Positions 3,478 through 29,682 of a stretch of DNA of 64,000 bases are shown here, one piece after another. The notes beneath the pieces are model-generated. The model saw nothing but the letters and a program-made list of their open reading frames with translations. It was not told the DNA's origin and did no database searches. The stretch lies in the NCBI GenBank assembly GCA_028281025.1, contig JANQKR010000038.1, positions 44,638 to 108,637 of the forward strand, read 5' to 3'. The first letter of the stretch is position 1; the number at the start of each line of letters is the position of its first letter. The stretch comes from Croceivirga sp. (GTDB taxonomy: Bacteria; Bacteroidota; Bacteroidia; Flavobacteriales; Flavobacteriaceae). Position numbers and translations under genes: made by a program.

Positions 3478-4614
3478 ATGAAAGCGTTAAGTCGAAGAAA
3501 ATTCGCAAAGACCCTGTCCAAAGGAGTAGGAGCAACCACTTTGATGGCAAATGTGCCTTTGGCCTGTGCCATGTCAGGTTCCAATCAAAAGAAGAAACTG
3601 GGTGTGGCTTTGGTGGGTCTTGGAAGTTACAGTACCTATCAGTTGGCACCGGCTTTGATGGATACCGAACATTGTTATTTGGCAGGGATAGTGACCGGTA
3701 CCCCGGCCAAGGCGAAAACATGGGCCAATAGGTACAATATTCCCGAGGGCAATATTTTTAACTATGGCAATTTTGATGCAATCAAGGAGAATAGGGAAAT
3801 TGATGTGGTCTATGTTGTACTTCCCAATTCCATGCATGCGGAATTTTCCATCCGGGCGGCAAAAGCGGGTAAACATGTAATTTGCGAGAAACCCATGGCC
3901 ATGGACGTAAGGGAATGTGATGAAATCATCAAAGCGTGCAAAGATGCTGGGGTAAAACTGGGAATGGGCTACCGCTTGCACTCCGAACCCTATACGCAAG
4001 AAGTGAAGCGTTTTGTAAGGGAGAAAACGTTCGGCGAAGTCCTTTATGTATCTGCAGATGCGGCCTATCGGTCTACGTCCAACCCCAATCAATGGCGTTT
4101 GGATAGAAAATTGTCCGGTGGTGGTGCCTTGGTCAATATGGGTGTTTATGCCATACAGAGCGCAATCTATGGAACTGGGCAAAATCCTATTTCGGTCCAG
4201 GCACAGGAATACAGCACCCGTCCAGAATACTTTAAGGATACCGATGAAACCATAACGGCCCAATTTGAGTTTCCCAGTGGGGCAGTGGCCAATATGATGA
4301 CCTCCCATAACGTGATAGCCAACCGACTTTACGCCACATGTGAGAACGGGTGGTTTGAATTGGACCCTGCAAGTACCTATATTCCATTGGCCGGAAGGAC
4401 TTCACGAGGGGAATTGGACTTTAAACAGGAAAGTCAACAAAAACTACAAATGGATGATTTCGCCAAGCATATTCTTTACGATGCCCCCAATTTAGCCCCC
4501 GGGGAAATGGGAAAACGGGATATGATGATCGTGGAGGCCATTTACAAGTCGATACGGGAGGGCGGTAAGAAGCAATCTTTGGATTTTGAGCCTGGTTACG
4601 GCTTCGGGAGTTGA
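3478..4614 (+). CDS. Gfo/Idh/MocA-family oxidoreductase with Tat-type signal
   Basis: 378 residues. The N-terminus carries SRRKFAKTL followed by a hydrophobic stretch, a Tat-like signal, suggesting export of a pre-folded, cofactor-loaded enzyme. The Rossmann nucleotide motif is GLGSYS (47-52) and the family catalytic-site motif EKP is at 137-139 (CEKPMAM). This resembles periplasmic glucose-fructose oxidoreductase, where NADP stays tightly bound. The substrate is probably a sugar or polyol; no sugar-utilisation genes adjoin it to narrow this. It is convergent with the ankyrin gene; the 204 bases between them show no clear terminator. Confidence 0.9.
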   Translation: MKALSRRKFAKTLSKGVGATTLMANVPLACAMSGSNQKKKLGVALVGLGSYSTYQLAPALMDTEHCYLAGIVTGTPAKAKTWANRYNIPEGNIFNYGNFDAIKENREIDVVYVVLPNSMHAEFSIRAAKAGKHVICEKPMAMDVRECDEIIKACKDAGVKLGMGYRLHSEPYTQEVKRFVREKTFGEVLYVSADAAYRSTSNPNQWRLDRKLSGGGALVNMGVYAIQSAIYGTGQNPISVQAQEYSTRPEYFKDTDETITAQFEFPSGAVANMMTSHNVIANRLYATCENGWFELDPASTYIPLAGRTSRGELDFKQESQQKLQMDDFAKHILYDAPNLAPGEMGKRDMMIVEAIYKSIREGGKKQSLDFEPGYGFGS

Positions 4615-17105: not shown

Positions 17106-17774
17106 TTAAAGGTTCTTAAAGTTGTTCTTAAGAAGTCCGTAGAATTCGTTTCGTGAATTCTCATTGGTAAACTTTCCTCCGTACTCCACAGTGGTTGTAA
17201 AACTGTCCTTGTCCTTGATTCCCCTGGATGAAACACAAAGGTGTTTGGCGTGTACCATAACGATGACATCATCGGTTTCCAAGGTTTCCTGCAAATCGTT
17301 CAGGATTTGTAAACAAAGACGCTCCTGGACTTGGGGTCTGTGGGCATAATAATCGACCAATCGGTTAATTTTTGACAATCCTACTACCTTATTTTTGGGA
17401 ATGTATCCAATATGGGCATGACCAATAATGGGTAAAAAATGATGTTCACAGGACGAGTCGATGGTAATATCCTGTTCTACCAACATTTTTTGATAGCCGT
17501 ATGTGTTTTCAAAAGTGGACAATTGGGGACGGTTATCGGGATTTAGTCCATAAAATAGTTCTTGGACATACATTTTTGCAAAACGGTAGGGTGTTCCCGA
17601 AAGACTGTCGTCATTGAGGTCCATCCCCAAAGTTTCCATTATTTTTTGAAAGTGATGTTGTATGCGCTCAATCTTTTCCTTATCGCTGAGCAAAAAAGCA
17701 TCTTCCCGCATTGGGGTTTCCAGGGAAGTGGCAATATGTTGATTCCCAAGGGTCTCTATTCTTTCAATATCCAT
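17106..17774 (-). CDS. folE: GTP cyclohydrolase I paralogue (second folE), zinc-island member
   Basis: 222 residues from the ATG at 17774; a TTG three codons upstream is less likely. Zinc ligands are intact: CEHH at 109-112 and Cys180 in HLCVSSRGI. The GLSKINRLV and RPQVQERL segments resemble the E. coli-type branch rather than the first copy at 13384, so this is an old paralogue or an acquired copy, not a recent duplication. It is 16 bases downstream of the merC-like gene and divergent from the zinc-type ABC operon. Zur regulons of other bacteria often contain a spare GTP cyclohydrolase for zinc starvation; that this copy serves so is inference, since it keeps the zinc site. Confidence 0.9.
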   Translation of the reverse strand: MDIERIETLGNQHIATSLETPMREDAFLLSDKEKIERIQHHFQKIMETLGMDLNDDSLSGTPYRFAKMYVQELFYGLNPDNRPQLSTFENTYGYQKMLVEQDITIDSSCEHHFLPIIGHAHIGYIPKNKVVGLSKINRLVDYYAHRPQVQERLCLQILNDLQETLETDDVIVMVHAKHLCVSSRGIKDKDSFTTTVEYGGKFTNENSRNEFYGLLKNNFKNL

Positions 17775-17790
17775 AATGATCAATTAAGGT

Positions 17791-18210
17791 TTAGGCATTC
17801 AGCTTTTCGTCGGTACAGCACTGTTCGTGACCACAATTGCAGTACTTCCTATTGTACAGATGGAAGAAGACAAGGGCGATGGATGGAAAATATATGGCCT
17901 GTTCCGCTAAAGGAAATAGGTGGATTTTCTCATTTATAACAATAAGCGCCAAAAGTCCCCAACTACCCCAAAGTAGGTTGCGCATCCATTTTTTGGAAGT
18001 GGTTTTGGCAGACCACCAAATGGCAAAAAAGGAAATGGCCAAAAAGACCAAATCCAGTATGCCCCACCATTGGGGATGCAATTCTCCGGCCCCTGCTATT
18101 CCTGCTTGGGCCACAAACAAAAAGGGAGTGACCACACAATGTACCAAACAAAGTGCACTGGCCAGGGCGCCAACGATATCGGATTTTGATGTCAATTGAA
18201 GGGTATTCAT
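17791..18210 (-). CDS. MerC-domain membrane protein
   Basis: 139 residues with four hydrophobic segments. The first carries CLVHC (Cys21, His24, Cys25), the metal-thiol pair of the MerC family, and a cytoplasmic tail is rich in ligands (NRKYCNCGHEQCC). MerC was described as a mercuric-ion carrier, but no mer reductase or MerR gene is present here. Next to a Fur-family gene and a His-rich ABC system it more plausibly moves or senses zinc. It is the first gene of a two-gene unit with the folE paralogue, transcribed divergently from the ABC operon with the candidate operator at 18259-18280 between them. Confidence 0.85.
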   Translation of the reverse strand: MNTLQLTSKSDIVGALASALCLVHCVVTPFLFVAQAGIAGAGELHPQWWGILDLVFLAISFFAIWWSAKTTSKKWMRNLLWGSWGLLALIVINEKIHLFPLAEQAIYFPSIALVFFHLYNRKYCNCGHEQCCTDEKLNA

Positions 18211-18258
18211 ATGGTTTTATGACTTGCAAAATGAAATGCAAAAATAACTTAAAATCGC

Positions 18259-18280
18259 AAACGCAACTCAGTCGCATTTA
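18259..18280. promoter_or_regulatory. candidate Zur operator in the divergent promoter
   Basis: Imperfect palindrome with half-sites AAACGCAAC and GTCGCATTT around TCA. It matches 18 of 22 positions of the perfect palindrome at 28265-28287. On both strands the outer half-site falls where the -33 element should be: GTCG then 16 bases then TAAGTTTG (18291) toward the ABC operon, and GTTG then 17 bases then TATTTTTG toward merC. Binding there would block both promoters. Assignment to Zur rests on the linked Fur-family gene and is inference. Confidence 0.55.
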
Positions 18281-18290
18281 AAATTCTTCT

Positions 18291-18298
18291 TAAGTTTG
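18291..18298 (+). promoter_or_regulatory. -7 promoter element of the zinc-type ABC operon
   Basis: TAAGTTTG fits TANNTTTG exactly and lies 4 bases before the ATG at 18303, implying a transcript start at or just after the start codon region, so a leaderless or very short-leader mRNA. The candidate operator covers the -33 position. Confidence 0.4.
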
Positions 18299-18302
18299 TA
18301 AG

Positions 18303-18938
18303 ATGACACAAATGGTCAAAACGGAAGGACTTCAGTTTAAGTACCCGGGGGGACAGGCTTTTGAGTTTCCCAATATTATTTTGAATAGCCAGGAACATCT
18401 ATTGGTGCTGGGGCCTTCTGGGGTTGGGAAGACCACTTTACTCCATTTACTTTCGGGAATATTACCGGCCTCCAGTGGTTCCATTGTGATTAATGAAACT
18501 GAAATTACTGCTTTGGACCGAAAGGGTCTGGATTTATTTCGTGGCGCATATGTTGGGCTCATTTTTCAGCAATACCATTTCATAAAATCCTTGAACGTTG
18601 ATGAAAACCTTAGGTTACGGCAGAACTTTCCCAAAAAAACCATGGATAAGGAGCGAAGGTTTGCCATTGCGGAACGATTGGGACTGACCCCATACCTCAA
18701 GAAAAAGGTAATGCAATTGAGTCAAGGACAGCAACAACGACTGTCCATAGCTTTGGGGTTGATCCATCGACCCCAGGTAGTCTTTGCCGACGAACCCACC
18801 TCCAATTTGGATGATTTTAACTGTAATCAGGTTATAAATTTGTTAAAAGATGAGGCTGAATTATGTGGGAGCAGTTTGGTCATTATAACCCACGACCAAC
18901 GGGTTACCCAACATTTTTCAAATCAAATTGTGCTATGA
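18303..18938 (+). CDS. ABC transporter ATP-binding protein (LolD/MacB class), zinc-island
   Basis: 211 residues: Walker A GPSGVGKTTL (about 39-48), Q-loop region FQQYHFIKSLNV, signature LSQGQQQRLSIALG, Walker B VVFADEPTSNLDD. It pairs with the FtsX-type permease whose ATG overlaps its stop (ATGA, 18935-18938). The arrangement ATPase, FtsX-type permease, secreted protein(s), under apparent Fur-family control recalls the zinc-repressed ABC clusters I know from Pseudomonas (PA4063-PA4066) and Vibrio (Zrg), where a separate His-rich protein is present; here the His-rich stretch is inside the permease. Confidence 0.88.
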   Translation: MTQMVKTEGLQFKYPGGQAFEFPNIILNSQEHLLVLGPSGVGKTTLLHLLSGILPASSGSIVINETEITALDRKGLDLFRGAYVGLIFQQYHFIKSLNVDENLRLRQNFPKKTMDKERRFAIAERLGLTPYLKKKVMQLSQGQQQRLSIALGLIHRPQVVFADEPTSNLDDFNCNQVINLLKDEAELCGSSLVIITHDQRVTQHFSNQIVL

Positions 18939-20365
18939 ACCTTTTGTATTTAGCCTATCGCAACATGGTCTCAAAACCCTTGAATATGGTTTTGAGCCTG
19001 GTACTTTTGGTACTTAGCGTTTCCTTGGTCACTTTTGTCCTGCAGCTCGGTAAGCAACTGAACGGACAAATGGACAAGAACATTACCCCAGTAGACATGG
19101 TCGTTGGGGCCAAAGGGAGCCCATTGCAGTTGGTGCTTTCCTCCGTTTTGCATATTGACGTACCTACGGGTAACATTAAACTGAAGGAGGCGGAGTCCAT
19201 TAAGAATCATCCCTTTGTGGGGTCTGCCATATCCGTTTCCTATGGGGATAACTACAAAGGGTATCGCATTTTGGGTACGGAACCGGGTTATTTGGATAAT
19301 TATGGTGTTGTTTTAAGCGCGGGAGGTTTATTTCAACAACCTTTTGAAATAGTGGCTGGGAATACCGTTGCCAAAAAATTGGGACTCCAAATAGGGGATA
19401 GGATTACCAGTTCCCATGGTTTGGCCGCTGCCGGTGGGGAAGCGCATGACGATCATCCCTTCACCATTGTTGGCGTTTTGGAGCCCTCTGGCACTGTGGT
19501 CGATCAGTTGCTGGTATGTGATTTGGAAAGTATCTGGGATGCCCACGCGCATGATGGTGGGGAACATCATGATGAAGGTGAAGAGCTTGAAGATGAGGAA
19601 CATGACCACGAAGAACATGATCATGAGGAACATGACCACGAGGAACACGACCATGAGGAACACGATCATGAGGAACATGACCACGAGGAACACGACCATG
19701 AGGAACACGACCATGAGGAACACGACCATGAAGAACATGATCATAAGGAACATGAAGGTGGACAACAGGTTCATGATGAAGCTAACGACACCGGACACGA
19801 TCATGAAGATCATGATGATGAACTTGAGATTACCTCTCTTTTGGTGAAATTCAAAAGTCCGTTGGGCCTGGTACAGTTACCGCGCTTTATCAATGAAAAT
19901 ACCAATATGCAGGCCGCCCTTCCCGGTTTTGAGATACAACGGCTTATGGGTTTCCTGGGTTCTGGGGTAAAGACCATAAACGGTATCGCTTTTGCCATTC
20001 TGTTCGTTTCTGGTTTCAGTATTTTCATTAGTCTATTGAAGACCATACGGGAACGAAGACAGGAATTGGCATTGTTGCGTACCTATGGCCTGGGAACACG
20101 AAAATTACTCTTCTTGGTATTGTTTGAAGGGCTCCTCTTGGCCTTAATAGGATTTTGGCTTGGATGGGTATTCGGTCGTTTGGCCCTGGCCCTGGCTTCG
20201 GGGTATATTGAATCGGGATATGGGTATGTTTTGCAATTGAATGGACCCGATCTTCCCGAGTTGTTACTTTTTGGGGTAACTTTGGTCATAGCCATGATTG
20301 CTGTTTTGTTGGCGTCCACGTCGATTTTTAAACTGAACATTTCGAAAACCTTGGCCGATGTATAA
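18935..20365 (+). CDS. FtsX/MacB-type ABC permease with histidine-rich periplasmic insertion
   Basis: 476 residues from the ATG at 18935. An upstream in-frame ATG at 18863 lies inside the ATPase gene and would add residues ahead of the first membrane segment. Layout: TM1 (about 13-35), a large periplasmic domain, then three C-terminal membrane segments (about 355-475), the type-VII ABC topology. Residues 221-270 are ten tandem EEHDH units, flanked by HAHDGGEHHDEG and later HDHEDHDDE, giving dozens of His/Asp/Glu in one loop. Such stretches in ZnuA or Zrg-type proteins bind zinc weakly and in number. The stop overlaps the next gene by 8 bases. A capture or sensing role for periplasmic zinc is inference. 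Confidence 0.88.
   Translation: MNLLYLAYRNMVSKPLNMVLSLVLLVLSVSLVTFVLQLGKQLNGQMDKNITPVDMVVGAKGSPLQLVLSSVLHIDVPTGNIKLKEAESIKNHPFVGSAISVSYGDNYKGYRILGTEPGYLDNYGVVLSAGGLFQQPFEIVAGNTVAKKLGLQIGDRITSSHGLAAAGGEAHDDHPFTIVGVLEPSGTVVDQLLVCDLESIWDAHAHDGGEHHDEGEELEDEEHDHEEHDHEEHDHEEHDHEEHDHEEHDHEEHDHEEHDHEEHDHEEHDHKEHEGGQQVHDEANDTGHDHEDHDDELEITSLLVKFKSPLGLVQLPRFINENTNMQAALPGFEIQRLMGFLGSGVKTINGIAFAILFVSGFSIFISLLKTIRERRQELALLRTYGLGTRKLLFLVLFEGLLLALIGFWLGWVFGRLALALASGYIESGYGYVLQLNGPDLPELLLFGVTLVIAMIAVLLASTSIFKLNISKTLADV
19595..19744 (+). repeat. ten tandem 15-bp repeats encoding EEHDH
   Basis: Ten in-frame copies of a 15-base unit of the form GAGGAACAYGAYCAY, differing only at synonymous third positions, with a degenerate eleventh unit (KEH) after them. 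Blocks of neighbouring units share the same third-base pattern, which suggests expansion by slippage or unequal exchange. Changes in copy number would stay in frame. Confidence 0.95.
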
Positions 20366-20801
20366 ACCATTTCTTTTGTTCCTTTTTCCTGTTTTCCTTA
20401 TGGTTCAAAGCGTTTCTGCGCAGTTGGAAGTAACATGGGAGGATTTCAGCGATGTGAATTTTGAACCGATGTACAATGAAAAGTACGACGTTCACTTTTT
20501 GATGCCCAAATTTGGGGAAAGGATTAAAACCTATCAGGGAAAGAAGGTTCAGATTACCGGGTATTTTTTGGATATTTCCGGAACGGGCGAAGTTTTTTTG
20601 GTTTCAGCCAATCCAATGGCCTCCTGCTTTTTTTGCGGTGCTGCAGGGCCAGAAAGTATCGTTGAGGTCAATTTCAAGGAAAGGCCGCCCTTTAGGACGG
20701 ACCAGGTTGTTCAGGTTACGGGCGTCCTGGAATTGAATGGCGATAATGTAGATCATTGTAACTATATTTTAAAAGAGGCATCGGGAAAATTGGTGAATTG
20801 A
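20358..20801 (+). CDS. secreted CFFCG-motif protein 1 (DUF3299-like candidate)
   Basis: 147 residues with signal peptide (cleavage near VSAQ). The mature part is an OB-like beta-rich domain: TYQGKKVQITGYFLDI, then NPMASCFFCGAAGPE (Cys-Phe-Phe-Cys), then QVVQVTGVLELNGD. Zinc-repressed ABC clusters of Proteobacteria also carry a small exported protein of this kind with a cysteine motif (I recall DUF3299), so a periplasmic metal-handling partner of the ABC system is likely. It begins inside the permease stop (8-base overlap) and is paralogous to the next gene. Its own metal binding has not been shown here. Confidence 0.75.
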   Translation: MYKPFLLFLFPVFLMVQSVSAQLEVTWEDFSDVNFEPMYNEKYDVHFLMPKFGERIKTYQGKKVQITGYFLDISGTGEVFLVSANPMASCFFCGAAGPESIVEVNFKERPPFRTDQVVQVTGVLELNGDNVDHCNYILKEASGKLVN

Positions 20802-20802
20802 T

Positions 20803-21237
20803 ATGAAGACCGTAGTGCTATTGTACCTCCTGGTTTTTTCCATGGAACTGACGGCCCAAACCGCATTGGACTGGTCAGATTTGGAACGGGGCATTACCTG
20901 GAGAAAAAGCGACGCCAAAAAAGCATATCCCGGTTTTTTGGAAGCTGACTTTTCAACCAAACTCACGGATTTGGAAGGAAAGGAAGTCTCGTTGATTGGG
21001 TTTCTGTTGGTATTGGATGGAAGTCAATCGGTCTATATGCTTTCCAAAAATCCAATGGCAAGCTGTTTCTTTTGCGGTAATGGCGGGCCAGAGACCATCT
21101 CGGAAATTGCATTTGCCCAAAAAACCTCCTTTGCCATGGATGATTTGATTACGGTAACGGGAATCCTACGTTTAAATCGGGATGACCCAACCCGATGTTA
21201 CTACCTCATCGAACAAGCCGAAGCCTTTGGTATCTAA
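20803..21237 (+). CDS. secreted CFFCG-motif protein 2, paralogue of the preceding gene
   Basis: 144 residues with signal peptide ending near LTAQ. It shares with its neighbour the block NPMASCFFCGxxGPE, the preceding GKEVSLIGFLL strand and the following ITVTGILRLN strand; other regions have diverged, so this is an old tandem duplication rather than a recent one. One base separates it from the first copy. Both could form a heterodimer or hand metal between envelope sites. It is followed by the Fur-family gene after 13 bases. Confidence 0.75.
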   Translation: MKTVVLLYLLVFSMELTAQTALDWSDLERGITWRKSDAKKAYPGFLEADFSTKLTDLEGKEVSLIGFLLVLDGSQSVYMLSKNPMASCFFCGNGGPETISEIAFAQKTSFAMDDLITVTGILRLNRDDPTRCYYLIEQAEAFGI

Positions 21238-21250
21238 ATAGCAATCCAAA

Positions 21251-21655
21251 ATGGAATATGTGATCGGTGATGACCTTCTACAGCAACAAGGACTAAAAAG
21301 GACAAAATTGCGAATGGCACTTTTGGACTGTTTCTTAAACACCAAACACGCACTGTCCTATCCAGATATTAAACAGACGTTGGGAGAAGGGGTGGACAAG
21401 TCCACGCTCTACCGAAACCTGAGTGCTTTTGAAGAAGCGGGCATCATCCATCGTATTAATGATCAAAGTGGTGTTGCGAAATATGCATTTGGCAAGGTCC
21501 ACGATCATGGTCGCAATCATGCCCACTTTGTTTGCGAGCAATGCGAAACGGTCTATTGTATTGAAAAAGCGACAACAGTGGACATCAATGTTCCCAAAGG
21601 ATTTAAAACCAAGACCATACAGACCATTATCAGAGGAATCTGTTCCGATTGTTAG
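21251..21655 (+). CDS. zur: Fur-family regulator, probably Zur
   Basis: 134 residues: N-terminal winged helix with the Fur-type recognition segment DKSTLYRNLSAFEEAGIIHRI, then a dimerisation domain with HDHGRNHAHFVCEQCETVYC (the structural CxxC and His ligands) and a C-terminal GICSDC pair. Fur, Zur, PerR and Nur share this layout. Position as last gene of the His-rich ABC operon, with a MerC-like protein and a spare FolE divergent from it, points to zinc as the effector. The two palindromes at 18259 and 28265 are its proposed sites, so it would be autoregulated. Fur or PerR function cannot be excluded from sequence alone. Confidence 0.85.
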   Translation: MEYVIGDDLLQQQGLKRTKLRMALLDCFLNTKHALSYPDIKQTLGEGVDKSTLYRNLSAFEEAGIIHRINDQSGVAKYAFGKVHDHGRNHAHFVCEQCETVYCIEKATTVDINVPKGFKTKTIQTIIRGICSDC

Positions 21656-21738
21656 CAACCCGGTGGAAGGGGTAACCATGGCAACACCATATGGGCGGGT
21701 ATCGGTTATCCATAACATTTTTTGGTTTTAAAGACCGT

Positions 21739-22323
21739 TTACCAGAACGTATTCTCCAACATGGAAATAAGGGACATTCCCGCGGCCACCCCCGAAATGA
21801 ACACATTCCATTCGCGGTGCTTGACCCTCAGGACAGTGAGGAAAAGAAAGGCAATACCAACGATAAAAAGCACAACCAACAATTGTCCGAGCTCTATGCC
21901 AATATTAAAGCCCAATAAGGGGATGACAATATCGGAAGGGTCCATGATCAGGGCCTTGAAGTAATTGGAAAAGTCCATGCCATGAATCAATCCAAAGAAC
22001 AAAGCCATGCCATAGTTTTGATTCATTCTTGAAGATTTTTCGGTGGTATTTGGACCAATGACATTGTGAAGGGCCGTAATAAATATGGTAGCCGGGATAA
22101 GGAATTTTATCAAATTTGAAGGAATTGAGAAAATGTCCAGGGACACGAGGACCAAAGTGATACTATGACCAATGGTGAACGCAGTCACCAAAATTAAAAT
22201 CTTCTTCCATTGTTCGATTCGATAAACTGCACAAAGCACTACCAAGAAAAGAATATGGTCATAAGCGGCCATATCGGCAATATGGTCAAAACCTAGTTTA
22301 AGATAAAACTCAAATGGGTGCAT
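21739..22323 (-). CDS. HupE/UreJ-family membrane protein
   Basis: 194 residues with five or six membrane segments. HupE/UreJ traits: an N-terminal GFDHIADMAAYDHILFL with repeated His-Asp, a conserved FTIGHSITL and an FGLIHGMDFS. HupE/UreJ proteins are usually seen as nickel or cobalt carriers. In Bacteroidota this version is commonly found beside DUF6702, which is also so here (one-base gap). Metal specificity is unknown. It is convergent with the zur candidate gene across 83 bases with no clear terminator. Confidence 0.82.
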   Translation of the reverse strand: MHPFEFYLKLGFDHIADMAAYDHILFLVVLCAVYRIEQWKKILILVTAFTIGHSITLVLVSLDIFSIPSNLIKFLIPATIFITALHNVIGPNTTEKSSRMNQNYGMALFFGLIHGMDFSNYFKALIMDPSDIVIPLLGFNIGIELGQLLVVLFIVGIAFLFLTVLRVKHREWNVFISGVAAGMSLISMLENTFW

Positions 22324-22324
22324 C

Positions 22325-22834
22325 TTAGAATTTCAGTTGGTGAACGGCTGTTTTTTTATTGAGCATCAAGCTATTGGATTTTCCGTTGACATGGACATAG
22401 ACGATGTTGTTTTGATCAAAGAACAAGTCGGTGAAAACGGCATTTTTGATTTCCAAGGAGGTCAAGGGCGATGGTTGTTGATATTCGAAGTAAACCCATA
22501 ATGCGGTATTATCACCTTCGCCGCTCAATTTCTTATGTTTTATTTGCAATTCTACCGCCTTTTTATTGGCTTTTACATGGAAAAACTGATTGAGATAGTC
22601 CAACAATAGTTGATTGGCCTTAACCGATTCATTGGGCTGGCAAAAGGCGAGCTCCTTGCTGTAGGGGTCAAAAACCAAGGCCTCATTCACATCGGTTAAG
22701 AACAGCTTTAGGTTAATGGTCAGCAATTGTTTGCTTGATGTATACTCAATTTCGCATAATGATAGCCGTAAAGGATGGGCGACCACCTGCATGGAAGCGG
22801 CCAAAGTAATTAGAACAAATACTGATTTGAACAC
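22325..22834 (-). CDS. DUF6702-family secreted protein
   Basis: 169 residues with a signal peptide ending VVAHP; HPLRLSLCEIEYTSSKQ at the mature start, then a beta-rich domain (LTINLKLFLTDVNEAL, ALWVYFEYQQP) as in the DUF6702 family. Members usually sit between an M1 aminopeptidase gene and HupE/UreJ. Here the M1 gene is absent and an M19 dipeptidase precedes, 18 bases upstream. Function is unknown; an exported accessory of the HupE-like carrier is a reasonable guess. Confidence 0.75.
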   Translation of the reverse strand: MFKSVFVLITLAASMQVVAHPLRLSLCEIEYTSSKQLLTINLKLFLTDVNEALVFDPYSKELAFCQPNESVKANQLLLDYLNQFFHVKANKKAVELQIKHKKLSGEGDNTALWVYFEYQQPSPLTSLEIKNAVFTDLFFDQNNIVYVHVNGKSNSLMLNKKTAVHQLKF

Positions 22835-22852
22835 AGCTTGAATGCTTGCGAA

Positions 22853-24130
22853 TTAGGAGGCTTCGTTGGATTGTATCTCCTTCGCTTTAGCCTGGACTTC
22901 CTTAAAAACACGGATGAGGTTACCACCCCAGATTTTCCGGATCTGTTCCTCGGTATACCCACGCTTTACAAGTTCTATAGTGATGTTCATCACCTCACTG
23001 GCATCAAAAACCCCTTCGATTCCACCACCTCCATCGAAATCACAACCAATTCCAACATGATCTATTCCCGCTACTTTCACAATATGATCGATGTGATCGG
23101 CAACATGGGTAACGGTCGCGGGAGGGTTGGGGAATTTTTCATTCAACTCCTGAAAGGACTTCCGCAAAGCCGTTCGTTCTTCCCTCGTCATTTCCCCGAT
23201 GGGTTTCATGTTTGCCCGGAGCGCGGCTACGGCAGAGTCGCGCTTTGCGTTCGGGGGAGCTTCCCTTAGATAGTCAGCAAGCATGGTGAGTTGAACAACA
23301 CCGCCATTTTCCGCCATCATCTTCAACATTTCATCGGTCATGTTGCGTTCGTGATTGGTCACTGCCCTGGCGTTGGAGTGGCTTGCAATAATTGGTGCCT
23401 TTGACAGTTTTACGGCATCATAGAATACGCTATCATTGCCATGGGAGACGTCCACCATAATACCAAGGCGATTCATCTCACCAACGACCTTGGCACCAAA
23501 ATCACTGATACCACCGTGTTCGGTTCCGTTTGGATCGGTAGCGGAATCGGCCAAATCGTTGTTGGAAGAATGTACCAGGGTGATATAGCGTACCCCTTTT
23601 TCAAAATAAAGTTCAACATTGGAAAGATCTTTGCCGATGGGATAACCGTTCTCTATACCAATGTAAATGGCCCGTTTTCCTTCCTTTTCCAAAGCATACG
23701 CGTCATCTGGGTTTAGCGCGAGTCCAACAATATCCGAATTCTTTTGGGTAGAGGCCACGATTGAATCCATCATTTGTAAGCAGAGTGCCTTAGCTCGGGT
23801 GTTGCCATCATCATCTCGAATATCCTGGGCCACAAAGGCCGCAAAGAAGATGGCATCCAACCCGCCTTCAATCATCCGGGGATAATCCACCTTTGAGCCG
23901 GTTTCCCTCGGATCATGACGTTCTGCCATATCAAAACCCGGTTCAATCATTCGCAAGGGAGTATCCGCATGGGTATCCAGGGTGAGCACACGTTCATGAA
24001 TCTCAAGTGCCTTTTGAACCAGTTTGTCTTCTTCAGTTTTTGAATCAGTAGGAGCTGATTTTTCTTTGCATCCACCAATGAACAATATCAGGAGGAAAAA
24101 AACGGGATAGTTTTGATGTAACTTCAACAT
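22853..24130 (-). CDS. membrane dipeptidase (M19) lipoprotein
   Basis: 425 residues. The lipobox is LFIGGC at about 16-21. The M19 renal-dipeptidase zinc-site motifs are visible: DTHADTPLRM (HxD), the bridging Glu in ENGYPIG, DVSHGND, SHSNARAV and GCDFDGGGG. It hydrolyses dipeptides, including those with D-residues, at the envelope. It heads a unit with DUF6702 and HupE/UreJ. The next gene upstream starts far away, so it has its own promoter in the 94 bases before it. Confidence 0.92.
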   Translation of the reverse strand: MLKLHQNYPVFFLLILFIGGCKEKSAPTDSKTEEDKLVQKALEIHERVLTLDTHADTPLRMIEPGFDMAERHDPRETGSKVDYPRMIEGGLDAIFFAAFVAQDIRDDDGNTRAKALCLQMMDSIVASTQKNSDIVGLALNPDDAYALEKEGKRAIYIGIENGYPIGKDLSNVELYFEKGVRYITLVHSSNNDLADSATDPNGTEHGGISDFGAKVVGEMNRLGIMVDVSHGNDSVFYDAVKLSKAPIIASHSNARAVTNHERNMTDEMLKMMAENGGVVQLTMLADYLREAPPNAKRDSAVAALRANMKPIGEMTREERTALRKSFQELNEKFPNPPATVTHVADHIDHIVKVAGIDHVGIGCDFDGGGGIEGVFDASEVMNITIELVKRGYTEEQIRKIWGGNLIRVFKEVQAKAKEIQSNEAS

Positions 24131-24224
24131 AGATTCCAGTTATGTTATTGATAAGAGTTAAATGTACAACAATAGATGGGGCAGGGAACACTTTTGGTAT
24201 AAATCTTTTTGGTCTTCAATTAAC

Positions 24225-25391
24225 TTAGGTAAAATTAGCTGAGGACAACTCTTGGATCAACTTTTCCATCATCTCCATACCTTTTTCCAATTGTTCATGG
24301 CTGATGTATTCATCGGCTCTATGTGCCTGTGCAATGGACCCCGGTCCACAAATGGCAGATTGAAAACCTTCATTGGCAAATTGTCCTGCTTCTGCTGCAT
24401 AGGACACTGTATTTAGTGTTGCGTTTCCCGAAAGTCTTTTGACCAAATCTACAATAGCATCATCGGCCTTGGTATCCAAATGCGGTACGGGAGGGTGGTT
24501 CTCAACGGTCTTTATGGAAAAATCGGGAAACAGCTTCCGCAATTCTTCTTCCCGTTTACGGCAGTAAGCCTCAAATTCTGCGACAATGGACCCCATATCA
24601 TCCATGGGAATGGTGCGTAAATCCCAATAAAAATGCGCCTTATCAGCTATTACATTGGGTGCAATGCCCCCATTGACCAAACCAATGTGGATGGACGAGT
24701 GTGGCGGATGAAAACGGTCATCCAATCGCTGATTCGCGATTAATTGGTCCATTTTGTTTTCGAGCCAAAGAATCAAACGCATGGATTCGTGAATGGCGCT
24801 GACCTCCTGTTTTATACGGCTGCTGTGTCCGGCCGAGCCGTTGACATAGGTTTCAAGAATATAAATACCCTTCTGTCCAACAATGGGTTCCATTAGGGAA
24901 GGTTCGCCAATAATCGCATATTTTGGCGTTTCCCTGTAGTGGGTTTTCATGGCATGGGCCAGTTCCGGCCCTGCCAAACAACCTACTTCCTCATCATAGG
25001 AAAAAGCGAAATAAATGGGCTTTTTCAGGTTGGCTTTTACCATTTGCGGTACTGCTGCCAAACAACAGGCAATAAAGCCCTTCATATCGCAAGAACCCCT
25101 GCCATACCATTTTCCGTCCCCTTTTTCCGTGAGTACAAAAGGGTCCGTGGTCCATTCCTGGCCTTCTACGGGTACCACATCCGTATGGCCGGAAAGAATG
25201 ACCCCACCATCGATATCCGGTCCTATTCTACAATGCAATGAGGCTTTGTTCCCTTCTGCATTGGGCAATAAATTCACTTCAACACCATGGGAGGTAATGT
25301 AGTCCCTTATCCAATGGATGATACTTAAATTGCTTTCGCCCCCTAGTACTGGGAAGGAAACCAATTTTGCAAGGATGTGCTCAACTGTCAT
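24225..25391 (-). CDS. M20 deacylase, N-acetylornithine deacetylase (ArgE)-like
   Basis: 388 residues from the ATG at 25391; a longer frame reaches an ATG at 25487 inside the carrier gene, but the family begins near TVEHILAKL. M20 zinc motifs: SGHTDVVPV, GRGSCDMKG, YDEEVGC with the catalytic glutamate pair, and AHRADEY. It removes acyl groups from amino acids such as N-acetylornithine, or cleaves small peptides. It starts 5 bases after the stop of a YfcC-type carrier, which suggests uptake and breakdown of acyl-amino acids or peptides rather than arginine synthesis. Confidence 0.88.
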   Translation of the reverse strand: MTVEHILAKLVSFPVLGGESNLSIIHWIRDYITSHGVEVNLLPNAEGNKASLHCRIGPDIDGGVILSGHTDVVPVEGQEWTTDPFVLTEKGDGKWYGRGSCDMKGFIACCLAAVPQMVKANLKKPIYFAFSYDEEVGCLAGPELAHAMKTHYRETPKYAIIGEPSLMEPIVGQKGIYILETYVNGSAGHSSRIKQEVSAIHESMRLILWLENKMDQLIANQRLDDRFHPPHSSIHIGLVNGGIAPNVIADKAHFYWDLRTIPMDDMGSIVAEFEAYCRKREEELRKLFPDFSIKTVENHPPVPHLDTKADDAIVDLVKRLSGNATLNTVSYAAEAGQFANEGFQSAICGPGSIAQAHRADEYISHEQLEKGMEMMEKLIQELSSANFT

Positions 25392-25396
25392 ATAAT

Positions 25397-26794
25397 TTAA
25401 CTGTAATTTGTTGCTACTGCTATAATCAAGGCCAAAAACGCCAAGAGAAGGACGATGATCAATACGGGAAATATAAAACGAATCCATCTGTCAATAGGCA
25501 CCCGACACATACTGAGCATGGCGATGAGCCCTCCCAAGGTTGGATTCACAAGGTTGGACAATCCATCACCGATCTGAAACGCCAAAATGGTAATTTGCCT
25601 GGTGAGTCCCAAGGATTCCCCCAGTGGTAGCATTACGGGCAAGGTGGCCAATGCCTGACCGCTTCCGGAAGGGATAAAAAAATTGATTACCGTTTGGGAA
25701 ATGGACATGCAAATCGCCGAGGCATATAAAGGCAATCCCTCCAAAACCATGGAAAGCCGATATGAAATGGTGTCACCGATATTTCCCATTTCCATAAGAA
25801 CCTTTATGGTTGTTGCAAAGCCCACCATAAAAGCACCGGGTGCAGCGATTGCCACCGACTTTAAAACGGTCTCGCTCATCGTAGTGGCGCCCATTCTGGA
25901 AACCAAGCCACAAAGAAGGGCAATAATCAAAAATACCGCAGATAGCTCATTGATGTACCAATGAAGGTTAAAAACCCCATATAAAATGACCATAAGTCCA
26001 GCCATAAATATCGAAATGACCAACCAATTATTTCCACTCATTCTATATTCCTGAAGTGGTCTGGACAGCGTCAATTCGCTTACATTGAGGCCTATGCCCA
26101 AACTTTTGTGTGGATTTAGGGTGATTGCTTTAAAGTACCTCACATTGTAATAGGCCATAATGCCCAAAGCCGTAAAGCAGAGGATACTACGAAGGAGGGC
26201 GCCGGAAAACATGGACAGTTCTGCGATTTTATGTCCGGTTCCCACGGTGTAAGGGTTTATTGGAGACAACCCAAAACCGATGGTCATCGCACCCACCGAA
26301 ATTCCAGCGGCCAAAATTAAATCACCTCCCAAGGCAAGACTTAGTACCGCAGCTATGGGTACCATGGCAATATTGTTTTCATAACCCACGGCAACGCCAA
26401 GCAGACCATAAATGAAGGTCATGATGACAATGATGAGGTGTTTGTTTTTTAGACCCAATTTTTTTACAAGTGTTCCCACGGCATTCTCTACCGCCTTTGA
26501 TTTTTCCATAAACCCGAACATAATGCCGCCTGCCAGTACAATGAATATGATTTCCACAGCAGCCTTAAAACCCAACGGTATGGCTTTGAACATGTCCAAA
26601 AAACCAACGGGCGTAGCAGGAATGGTCTTGTATGAGTCGGGAACCACTGTACTTCGACCATCGATCAAAACCCGTTCATACGTCCCTGCCGGAAGTAGGT
26701 AGGTCAATAGGGTCACCAACACAATTATGCCAAATAGCATGGTAATGGCATGTGGGATACGTTTAAAAAGGGACAGATTTTTGGATGTACTCAT
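25397..26794 (-). CDS. YfcC/DcuC-family carrier
   Basis: 465 residues, about 12 membrane segments. The pair of GFGLSPINPYTVGTGHKIAE and NFFIPSGSGQALATLPVM segments is typical of the YfcC/C4-dicarboxylate carrier superfamily (ion-transporter fold with two re-entrant hairpins). Substrates in the family include dicarboxylates, arginine/ornithine and dipeptides. The operon partner, an ArgE-like deacylase, suggests acyl-amino acids or small peptides, by inference. It is preceded by 70 bases without a gene. Confidence 0.85.
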   Translation of the reverse strand: MSTSKNLSLFKRIPHAITMLFGIIVLVTLLTYLLPAGTYERVLIDGRSTVVPDSYKTIPATPVGFLDMFKAIPLGFKAAVEIIFIVLAGGIMFGFMEKSKAVENAVGTLVKKLGLKNKHLIIVIMTFIYGLLGVAVGYENNIAMVPIAAVLSLALGGDLILAAGISVGAMTIGFGLSPINPYTVGTGHKIAELSMFSGALLRSILCFTALGIMAYYNVRYFKAITLNPHKSLGIGLNVSELTLSRPLQEYRMSGNNWLVISIFMAGLMVILYGVFNLHWYINELSAVFLIIALLCGLVSRMGATTMSETVLKSVAIAAPGAFMVGFATTIKVLMEMGNIGDTISYRLSMVLEGLPLYASAICMSISQTVINFFIPSGSGQALATLPVMLPLGESLGLTRQITILAFQIGDGLSNLVNPTLGGLIAMLSMCRVPIDRWIRFIFPVLIIVLLLAFLALIIAVATNYS

Positions 26795-26864
26795 TTATCG
26801 CTAAGGGATACCCATAAACAGTTGGGTCCAAGAATTAATTCCTTTGGAATTTCATTGATTCAGG

Positions 26865-27362
26865 CTAATTTAAGCTAAAGTATTCTTTACAAATCAAGTC
26901 TGGACATATTTCTTTAAATACATTTCCTTGGGAATCATATATTTTGCCATTTATTCTGATCCGACTAAAAAATAGCGTATTTAATTCAAGTTGCAATTCC
27001 CTTATTTTCGTATTCAGGTAATACGAAAGAATTGTGAATTTGTTATTGGGATGCCGCCAAGATACTTTTGAACGTTCCTTTTGCCTAATAACTTCATCAT
27101 AAAAACCATTCAATCCCTTTGTCTTAGAAAAACCTTGACGTCCCAATGCATCCAATATCATCACATTGTTAATTGACAGAACAAAGGAAATCTCTCCAAT
27201 AGTATACTTTGTGATCAATACTTCTATTTGATTAATGGTATCCTTGTCAAACACCACAGAGTTGCCAAGCGACGAATAATAGTAGTTGCTATGCTTAAAC
27301 CTGGCGTTGATGATAGGTTCAAGATAATCCGTAGGGCATATAAAGTATAGGTGGCCTGGCAT
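26865..27362 (-). CDS. small protein linked to the LCIB-type carbonic anhydrase; degenerate beta-CA-like candidate
   Basis: 165 residues from the ATG at 27362, giving MPGHLYFICPTDYLEPIINA at the N-terminus; a TTG at 27392 would overlap the upstream gene by 20 bases. No signal. The pattern GNSVVFDKDTI, then IEVLITKYTI and SFVLSINNVMI, resembles the GN..SLEYAV..L..IVVLGH core of beta-carbonic anhydrases, but the zinc-ligand Cys/His residues are missing. It could be a pseudo-enzyme subunit. It lies 10 bases after the LCIB-type gene on the same strand. This identification is tentative; the family is not one I can name. Confidence 0.6.
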   Translation of the reverse strand: MPGHLYFICPTDYLEPIINARFKHSNYYYSSLGNSVVFDKDTINQIEVLITKYTIGEISFVLSINNVMILDALGRQGFSKTKGLNGFYDEVIRQKERSKVSWRHPNNKFTILSYYLNTKIRELQLELNTLFFSRIRINGKIYDSQGNVFKEICPDLICKEYFSLN

Positions 27363-27372
27363 TGGTTTGAGG

Positions 27373-28086
27373 TCAAAGGCTTTTGACGTCAATTACTTTA
27401 AAATGTCTGGCGTCAAAATAGTCGTCCAATCCATAATCCGTATTAATGATGATGCCTCCCAAAAGCGTTACCTTATCCACGTGGAATTCATTTTTACACG
27501 ATTTTAAATGCTCATGAACCTTGCGATCGATGATTTCGTAGGTTGCTTCGGTTATGGCCTTTTCTTGATTTTCACTATCCAATATTTTTTGTCGGTAGGG
27601 AAGTAGGCTTTCCTCAAGTTTCATCTGTTGATAATCATCATCAGTTATTACCGGTTTATAGGCACTATCCTGGAATCGGCTTAATGCCAGCATAAGGGCC
27701 CCACAGGAGTTTCCGGTCTGTTCCTGGCGCGGACGGTACATTTTTCCCAAATCCCCGTCCAGGGTAATCCCTATGTGGGGACCGTAAAAGATAAATGCGC
27801 TACCATCATCGGGAATATGATGGGCAAAAGCGGTCATGCCGGTCTGCCCGGCGAAAGGCAGTCCGCCCAGTCCACCCATAATAAATGGGCCGAACAATAC
27901 ATTGAAGAAGGTGGTGGAAGGCACATTGATATCATCTGAACACACCGAAGTTGCCATCAATACCCGGGAAATATCGATATGGTGTTCCAATTGCATTTTT
28001 CCAAGGTAATGGATCGAGGTGTCCTTGGCATCCATGGCATCGGGAAAGTAGGTCTTTGCTACTTCCGCAAATTTTCTTTGTAACAT
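27373..28086 (-). CDS. LCIB/LCIC-type beta-carbonic anhydrase
   Basis: 237 residues without signal. The metal ligands expected for the LCIB family are at Cys49 (TSVCSDDIN), His104 (FYGPHIGI) and Cys128 (GNSCGA); the spacing 55 and 24 is like the algal LCIB Cys-His-Cys set as I recall it. The AFAHHIPDDGSAFIFYGP block is family-specific. It interconverts CO2 and bicarbonate. First gene of a pair with the small 165-residue protein. The perfect palindrome at 28265-28287 lies 179 bases upstream, with a GTTG/TATATTTT promoter-like pair beside it, giving a long leader if used. Confidence 0.85.
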   Translation of the reverse strand: MLQRKFAEVAKTYFPDAMDAKDTSIHYLGKMQLEHHIDISRVLMATSVCSDDINVPSTTFFNVLFGPFIMGGLGGLPFAGQTGMTAFAHHIPDDGSAFIFYGPHIGITLDGDLGKMYRPRQEQTGNSCGALMLALSRFQDSAYKPVITDDDYQQMKLEESLLPYRQKILDSENQEKAITEATYEIIDRKVHEHLKSCKNEFHVDKVTLLGGIIINTDYGLDDYFDARHFKVIDVKSL

Positions 28087-28264
28087 AGTAAGGAAGGTAA
28101 AATGGTTAATTTGACATTATGAAACTTTTCCAGGTTCCTTACTTTCCCAGGAAATTTGGGAGAAAGCAGGCCTCGGTCGAGTATGAAATAACAATTTACT
28201 GTAAAGGACTTGTGTAACAAAAGTACTCCAATAGCTGCACGGTAAAAATATAGGAAAGCGTTAA

Positions 28265-28287
28265 TAAATGCAACTATGTTGCATTTA
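28265..28287. promoter_or_regulatory. perfect palindrome, candidate Zur operator
   Basis: Perfect 10-bp inverted repeat (TAAATGCAAC / GTTGCATTTA) around TAT. It is the closest relative in the window of the site at 18259-18280. On the minus strand GTTG within it is followed 18 bases later by TATATTTT, a near -7 element pointing to the carbonic anhydrase gene. The intergenic region (28087-28432, 346 bases) otherwise holds no convincing gene; toward the VCBS gene (ATG 28433) no matching promoter pair starts from this site. Confidence 0.55.
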
Positions 28288-29652: not shown

Positions 29653-29682
29653 ACAAAGTGACCGCTATAGCGGTCACTTTGT
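29653..29682. terminator. bidirectional hairpin between convergent genes
   Basis: A 30-base perfect palindrome (arms ACAAAGTGACCGC and GCGGTCACTTTGT around TATA), lying between the convergent ends of the VCBS gene (29644) and the gamma-glutamyltransferase gene (29704). No T-run on either side, but symmetry and placement fit a shared terminator. Confidence 0.7.

Follow-up and report, generated by a model that had tools for sequence, protein, structure and literature searches.

A palindromic promoter box shared by an LCIB-type carbonic anhydrase gene and a divergent MerC-folE/ABC transporter locus in Croceivirga: a probable Zur-type regulon

We analysed a 64,000-nucleotide stretch of contig JANQKR010000038.1 of Croceivirga sp. 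(Flavobacteriaceae, assembly GCA_028281025.1), hereafter the window, in which two matching palindromes lie 10 kb apart. One separates the divergent MerC-folE and ATP-binding cassette (ABC) operons and the other precedes a gene for an LCIB-type carbonic anhydrase. An original prediction, made from the letters of the window, had proposed that the two sites define a probable zinc regulon. The boxes and the genes around them are the following.

17106..17783, minus strand: FolE paralogue (GTP cyclohydrolase I, type IA), predicted target of box 1 (PF01227, 200 bits; NF006824, 261 bits; alignment)
17791..18210, minus strand: MerC-domain membrane protein, first minus-strand gene behind box 1 (PF03203, 69.6 bits)
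18259..18279, no strand: box 1, predicted Zur-type box AAACGCAACTCAGTCGCATTT, with 2 mismatches to the consensus, between the divergent MerC-folE and ABC operons
18303..18938, plus strand: ABC ATPase (PF00005, 93 bits)
18938..20365, plus strand: FtsX/MacB-type permease with a His/Asp/Glu-rich tract (PF02687, PF12704)
20358..20801, plus strand: DUF_a, small protein with a secreted-looking N terminus and an ASCFFCG motif (no Pfam hit)
20803..21237, plus strand: DUF_b, paralogue of DUF_a (32% identity in alignment A1)
21251..21655, plus strand: Fur-family regulator with Cys4 site and HxH, without the canonical Zur site-B Cys (Gly81) (PF01475, 57 bits; alignments)
27373..28086, minus strand: LCIB-type beta carbonic anhydrase, predicted target of box 2 (PF18599, 170.7 bits, cut-off 25)
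28265..28287, no strand: box 2, predicted Zur-type box, perfect palindrome TAAATGCAAC-TAT-GTTGCATTTA, upstream of LCIB

Direct inspection of the letters bears out the description of the palindromes given in the original prediction: the copy at 28265–28287 is perfect, and the imperfect one at 18259–18280, AAACGCAACTCAGTCGCATTTA, is identical to it at 18 of 22 positions. Their shared form is AAATGCAAC-NNN-GTTGCATTT, with the core GCAACNNNGTTGC. They are also, as had been stated by eye, the only good copies in the window, since AAAYGCAACNNNGTYGCATTT at up to three mismatches matches these two places only (4 strand hits; mean of 0.47 hits in 100 shuffles, one of which reached 4). Throughout the 5.1-Mb genome, AAATGCAACNNNGTTGCATTT at up to two mismatches finds the window's two sites only; four additional sites (L003–L006) appear at exactly three mismatches, one of them (contig 31, L054) within a long open reading frame (ORF). 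The exact core TGCRACNNNGTYGCA occurs three times in the genome (control 0), once at 28.27 kb of the window and as a tandem pair on contig 13, and the 18.26-kb box differs from it by one base. The window's two boxes and the tandem pair therefore make at least four boxes at three places in the genome. Nine other one-mismatch core matches were found (contig-13 pair excluded), seven within ORFs of more than 100 aa and two, both on contig 13 (15118, 74239), not clearly within ORFs. The tandem boxes lie between a second Fur-family gene, which is divergent from them, and a divergent run of MerC, DUF1826 and COG0523 genes that continues with a MoCF_biosynth-domain gene and a TonB receptor gene (Pfam assignments for four of these genes).

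The box recurs beside similar genes in related bacteria. At up to two mismatches, eight of the ten other genomes of the genus contain 21 sites, and the reversed-pattern control yields none; across 119 genomes, our own included, the same threshold returns 52 sites in 33 genomes versus 9 control sites, some of the 52 being noise within ORFs (e.g., C63 and C70 of G001, C19 of G007, and L047–L049). Two boxes about 10–13.5 kb apart are retained in seven other genomes of the genus (L036–L042), the first marking the ABC operon and the second preceding COG0523 and/or LCIB genes; L038 has COG0523 but no LCIB label at its second box, and L036 no Fur-family label in its ABC operon. At the place of box 1 the copy is identical in the same-genus L037 and L039 and has no or one mismatch in the other five, and the equivalents of box 2 have 0 mismatches in all seven. 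Genomes G007 and G010, which have no strict core, carry a 3-mismatch box between a Fur gene of the contig-13 type and MerC. A further box stands in G004, G006 and G008 ahead of lipoprotein (recognized by eye), dCTP deaminase-like, HisI, Fur-family and CysRS genes, and FolE is labelled in two of these three HisI–CysRS runs (Pfam for three genes of the run). In the same-genus L043, L044 and L045, the box before such a run lies around 4064–4132 and the Fur-family protein is of a third kind. Box partners among relatives comprise MerC-folE, the ABC/FtsX operon, COG0523 GTPases, TonB receptors, a Fur-family gene, LCIB and the HisI/FolE/CysRS run, that is, a palindromic promoter box conserved across species and accompanied by zinc-supply or zinc-enzyme backup genes (COG0523, FolE, HisI, CysRS, MerC, TonB receptor). 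In a sample of 395 genomes of the phylum, our own included, 19 sites at up to one mismatch were found in 15 genomes (control 0), and 7 of the 14 flanks viewed carry a BLAST label of COG0523, Fur, MerC or DUF1826. The original prediction had named as support that related species keep the box ahead of zinc-type genes, which is what we observe, and this recurrence favors the proposed zinc regulon; its dependence on zinc itself is something we infer.

The gene behind the perfect copy encodes a protein with the PF18599 domain and a C-H-C arrangement typical of LCIB, for which carbonic anhydrase activity is predicted. Its candidate ligands C49, H89/H90 and C128, which we take from LCIB structures to bind the metal, show no variation among the 80 sequences aligned, and its relatives with solved structures are, by sequence, PtLCIB4, LCIB and LCIC. 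LCIB is single-copy in the genome, alongside three PF00484 beta carbonic anhydrase genes. Upstream regions were compared for the best 80 of 83 loci encoding LCIB relatives, taken from named records, of which 79 gave an ORF; as these loci were chosen by likeness to the window LCIB, close relatives included, the loci do not count as independent events. In the 6 kb preceding LCIB, a box is present at up to three mismatches in 44 of 79 loci and at up to two in 34 of 79, compared with means of 0.28 (maximum 3) and 0.00 for 60 permuted palindromes; the reversed pattern is found in 0 of 79. In 16 of the 79 loci a box lies no more than 150 bp from LCIB itself (0.03 for permuted palindromes); 37 have a zinc-type neighbor by BLAST label, and 52 have either box or neighbor.

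The proximity of box and gene in these 16 loci, and the fact that the perfect copy serves LCIB, would be expected if the box belonged to a regulator that responds to carbon dioxide or bicarbonate and targets carbonic anhydrase, the other genes being incidental. However, many boxes outside the LCIB set lie near metal-type genes without an LCIB label (other carbonic anhydrase classes were not sought there), and the three PF00484 genes of the genome have no site at up to four mismatches in their 3,450-base loci, so that we regard a carbon dioxide signal as very improbable.

COG0523 and DinB-type genes between box and LCIB are absent in G000 and G002, which makes LCIB the first gene there. The gap between box 2 and LCIB aligns in its flanks with G002 and G004; against G005 and G006 its flanks do not align and the box is the sole strong match, with no COG0523 remnant detected by blastn beyond the box. 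On the opposite side of box 2 begins an FG-GAP gene (28433), which was considered as a target and rejected: its best -7 match is 4/6 (gap 22; gaps 14–25 examined), and the neighbor on that side varies among relatives. Because no promoter element of the right spacing faces the FG-GAP gene, the 28.27-kb site probably serves the LCIB side only. Around these genes, a protein without Pfam hit (26865–27392) overlaps the LCIB end and has relatives labelled in 28 of 80 LCIB loci, and a 13-pair hairpin (29653–29682) separates the convergent FG-GAP and gamma-glutamyltransferase-like genes and resembles a terminator serving both. Bacteroidota-like LCIB sequences also occur in records titled Bythopirellula (L156, 80% identical) and Thalassobius (L176, 67%), reflecting either horizontal transfer or misbinned contigs.

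Flavobacterial promoters carry -33 and -7 elements of the form TTTG and TAnnTTTG (PMC6847099; here and below, citations refer to extracts of the papers named). Candidate -7 elements accompany the boxes on three sides.

18239..18246, minus strand: MerC-folE -7 element TATTTTTG, 17 bases from the box TTG (18264–18266)
18291..18298, plus strand: ABC operon -7 element TAAGTTTG, 16 bases from the box TCG (18272–18274)
28243..28252, minus strand: LCIB -7-like element TATATTTTTA, 5/6 matches at gap 18 or 20

The MerC and ABC spacings were measured on L037, and the same letters are present in the window; for LCIB, the alternatives are TATATTTT or TATTTTTA, 18 or 20 bases past TTG, with 5/6 matches each. 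These gaps agree with the 16–18 bases between outer half-site and -7-like element that had been read by eye. In a set of 79 non-redundant boxes, arranged as 103 oriented rows with a gene start 25–260 bases away, TAnnTTTG (at least 5/6) begins 17–21 bases after the box TTG in 65 rows, with peaks at 18–20, whereas windows of the same width elsewhere gave a mean of 7.8 and a maximum of 15. As TTG was part of the site-picking pattern, its presence is no extra evidence and the distance alone is informative. The ABC promoter, with a gap of 16 and TCG instead of TTG, falls just outside the 17–21 range. A scan for sigma-70 type promoters (29 vs. 26.6 expected) is uninformative for this phylum. Overall, the geometry supports repression through a regulator that would cover the -33 region. 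Any palindrome can fold, and the two sites might in principle be products of chance, RNA hairpins or terminators and not operators. But the box is rare and not scattered at random in the genome (random scatter would have counted against the original prediction), controls are at or near zero, the distance to promoter elements is fixed, and in G005 and G006 the box stands out from unaligned flanks; we give such an origin hardly any credence.

Behind box 1, the FolE paralogue retains in the alignment the CEHH and HLC motifs, presumably its zinc ligands. For the ABC ATPase, ATG 18312, common to relatives, is a more probable start than 18303. In the permease, a tract at 19592–19762 contains HDH ten times in near-identical repeats, compared with one to six in seven relatives, and is likely metal-binding. 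A predicted model of DUF_a (predicted local distance difference test score, pLDDT, of 87.7) has a fold like that of oligonucleotide/oligosaccharide-binding (OB) proteins, to which it shows weak matches; no solved relative was found by sequence at E below 0.1. A HupE/UreJ-type membrane protein and a small neighbor (21739–22834) are located near the ABC operon end in L036–L042 and close to LCIB in L114 and L164, and neither was seen to have its own box.

Four Fur-family proteins (PF01475) are encoded in the genome, and both CxxC motifs are present in two of them, the window protein and its contig-13 paralogue, and not in the others. The Cys4 residues C95, C98, C131 and C134 are invariant in 14 of 14 rows of alignment A2, which includes the paralogue, and the window protein accordingly combines the Fur fold with the two CxxC motifs of the structural zinc site A. 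The contig-13 paralogue has a Cys at the sensor position, aligned with a Cys of 3mwm, which we take to be the Zur of S. coelicolor, and further genomes encode Cys-bearing Zur-like proteins next to the box (e.g., L050–L052). In E. coli Zur, site B consists of His77, Cys88, His96 and Glu111, and the C88S exchange abolishes function (PMC4219657). The window-type protein retains HxH and both CxxC motifs. Since it does not have the site-B Cys kept by the contig-13 paralogue, the operon-linked gene probably does not act alone as regulator and its role may be secondary, and the contig-13 protein is likely the main Zur in this genome. The original proposal that the linked Fur-family gene is the regulator is supported as to family and zinc-type regulon; a sole or main role is disfavored by the Gly at the sensor position. 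In genome G005, five proteins match PF01475, of which the window type alone has the CxxC motifs (three are without them and one is a broken copy). As the sole Cys4 candidate there, it must read the box in G005 if a Cys4 Fur-family protein does, and probably does so. G001 encodes the contig-13 type and a third type of Cys4 Fur-family protein. The co-distribution of box and sensor was compared in 11 genomes, too few for a firm claim. In view of the Gly/CxxC pattern, the Zur model score given below and the G005 case, we name the system Zur-like.

The same features could mean that the box is read by the window Fur-family protein and that the signal is iron, manganese, nickel or cobalt instead of zinc: besides the Gly and the G005 case, the ABC operon resembles the PA4063-PA4066 genes of P. 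aeruginosa, which have been connected with the export of a cobalt complex (PMC11481552). PA4063-PA4066 is itself under Zur control (PMC11481552), however, the targets match the zinc deficiency list of COG0523, HisI, CysRS and FolE (PMC2770081), and the Cys-bearing Zur-like proteins adjoining the box elsewhere also argue for zinc. We consider another metal unlikely.

Several observations weigh against a zinc-responsive Fur-family repressor as the reader of the box. The window protein has no site-B Cys, all 8 rows of its type, two of them from the same genome, having Gly there, and that Cys is present in only 14 of 32 Cys4 rows. The NCBIfam Zur equivalog model, applied to the window protein and not to the contig-13 protein, gives 27 bits where its cut-off is 167. 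A Cys4 Fur-family protein is encoded in G009, yet no core box turned up genome-wide and no box near its gene. Among the sampled phylum genomes only 15 of 395 contain the box at up to one mismatch, and 7 of the 14 flanks viewed have no COG0523, Fur, MerC or DUF1826 label. Neither box nor zinc-type neighbor is found at 27 of 79 LCIB loci, which indicates that LCIB is not always in the regulon; less than 5.5 kb of upstream sequence is available in 10 of the 79, explaining few of the 27. The -33 motif of F. johnsoniae is weak and much less evident genome-wide (PMC6847099), and TCG in place of TTG makes the -33 argument weaker for the ABC promoter. Finally, the zinc role and DNA binding are predictions from sequence.

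On balance, both palindromes are copies of one box, which most likely serves as operator for a Fur-family repressor loaded with zinc (Zur). The core GCAACNNNGTTGC would be the binding site of a Zur dimer, as its fit to the published RNNNYxxxRNNNY suggests, and, given the spacing of TTG and TAnnTTTG in 65 of the 103 oriented copies, the zinc-bound dimer would lie over the -33 region and keep out RNA polymerase, at 18.26 kb in both directions (MerC-folE and the ABC operon) and at 28.27 kb in one (LCIB). When zinc falls, the dimer would be released and the box genes turned on, providing a metal-trafficking ABC/FtsX transporter, a second FolE and the LCIB carbonic anhydrase, so that folate and bicarbonate supply could be maintained on scarce zinc. 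The contig-13 protein would likely act as the main Zur and the window protein as a second reader of the same box. More tentatively, and with doubt prevailing, we suggest a Zur system of the Bacteroidota's own, in which the operator doubles as the -33 element and is shared by a Cys-bearing Zur and a paralogue with a His-rich loop replacing the sensor Cys, and in which LCIB, supplied with its metal by a COG0523 GTPase from that regulon, would sustain CO2 hydration in zinc famine.

Zinc regulation in Bacteroidota is little described in the literature searched, and the box would allow zinc regulons to be called across the phylum. It would also connect the LCIB proteins, a family familiar from the carbon-concentrating mechanisms of algae, with bacterial zinc starvation and make LCIB a candidate client of COG0523 metal chaperones. 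The paired Fur-family readers, one with the sensor cysteine and one lacking it, are directly testable. No Bacteroidota Zur box was found in the literature listings and passages searched; RegPrecise and subscription papers were outside its scope, so that one may be recorded there. The strings "bacteroid" and "flavobacter" are absent from the main texts of two Zur reviews and the COG0523 survey. LCIB under Zur was not found in the literature listings searched, where two papers combining all the terms sought remained unread.

Already known are Zur regulons, COG0523, HisI/CysRS paralogues, a Zur-controlled gamma carbonic anhydrase, ytiB, and a Zur-controlled MacB-type operon. HisI, CysRS and COG0523 are Zur targets in proteobacteria, where a gamma carbonic anhydrase is under Zur (PMC2770081), and the carbonic anhydrase of the B. 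subtilis Zur regulon is ytiB (PMC6103462). The system described here resembles those of proteobacteria and Bacillus in its Fur-family repressor, promoter palindrome and COG0523, HisI, CysRS and carbonic anhydrase targets. It differs in the box sequence AAATGCAACNNNGTTGCATTT, in the LCIB class of its carbonic anhydrase, in a FolE paralogue of the FolE (type IA) family and not FolE2, and in a box that carries TTG positioned like the Bacteroidota -33 element. In E. coli, one Zur dimer binds RNNNYxxxRNNNY (PMC4219657); GCAACNNNGTTGC fits this core, whereas the outer bases differ. P. aeruginosa PA4063-PA4066 and the Vibrio ZrgA cluster are Zur-controlled and combine a split MacB-type ATPase/permease with small periplasmic proteins (PMC11481552). 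A separate ABC ATPase and FtsX/MacB permease are found here too. No PA4063-like gene was recognized in the ABC operon, for which no dedicated search was made; here, the His-rich tract sits in the permease and a Fur-family gene ends the operon. DUF_a was considered as a possible PA4066 relative; DUF_a and DUF_b have no Pfam hit, and the DUF_a model only weakly resembles OB-fold proteins. With LCIB and LCIC of algae and diatoms, the window carbonic anhydrase has in common the PF18599 match and the candidate C-H-C ligands, whereas it is bacterial and its predicted control is by zinc starvation instead of low CO2.

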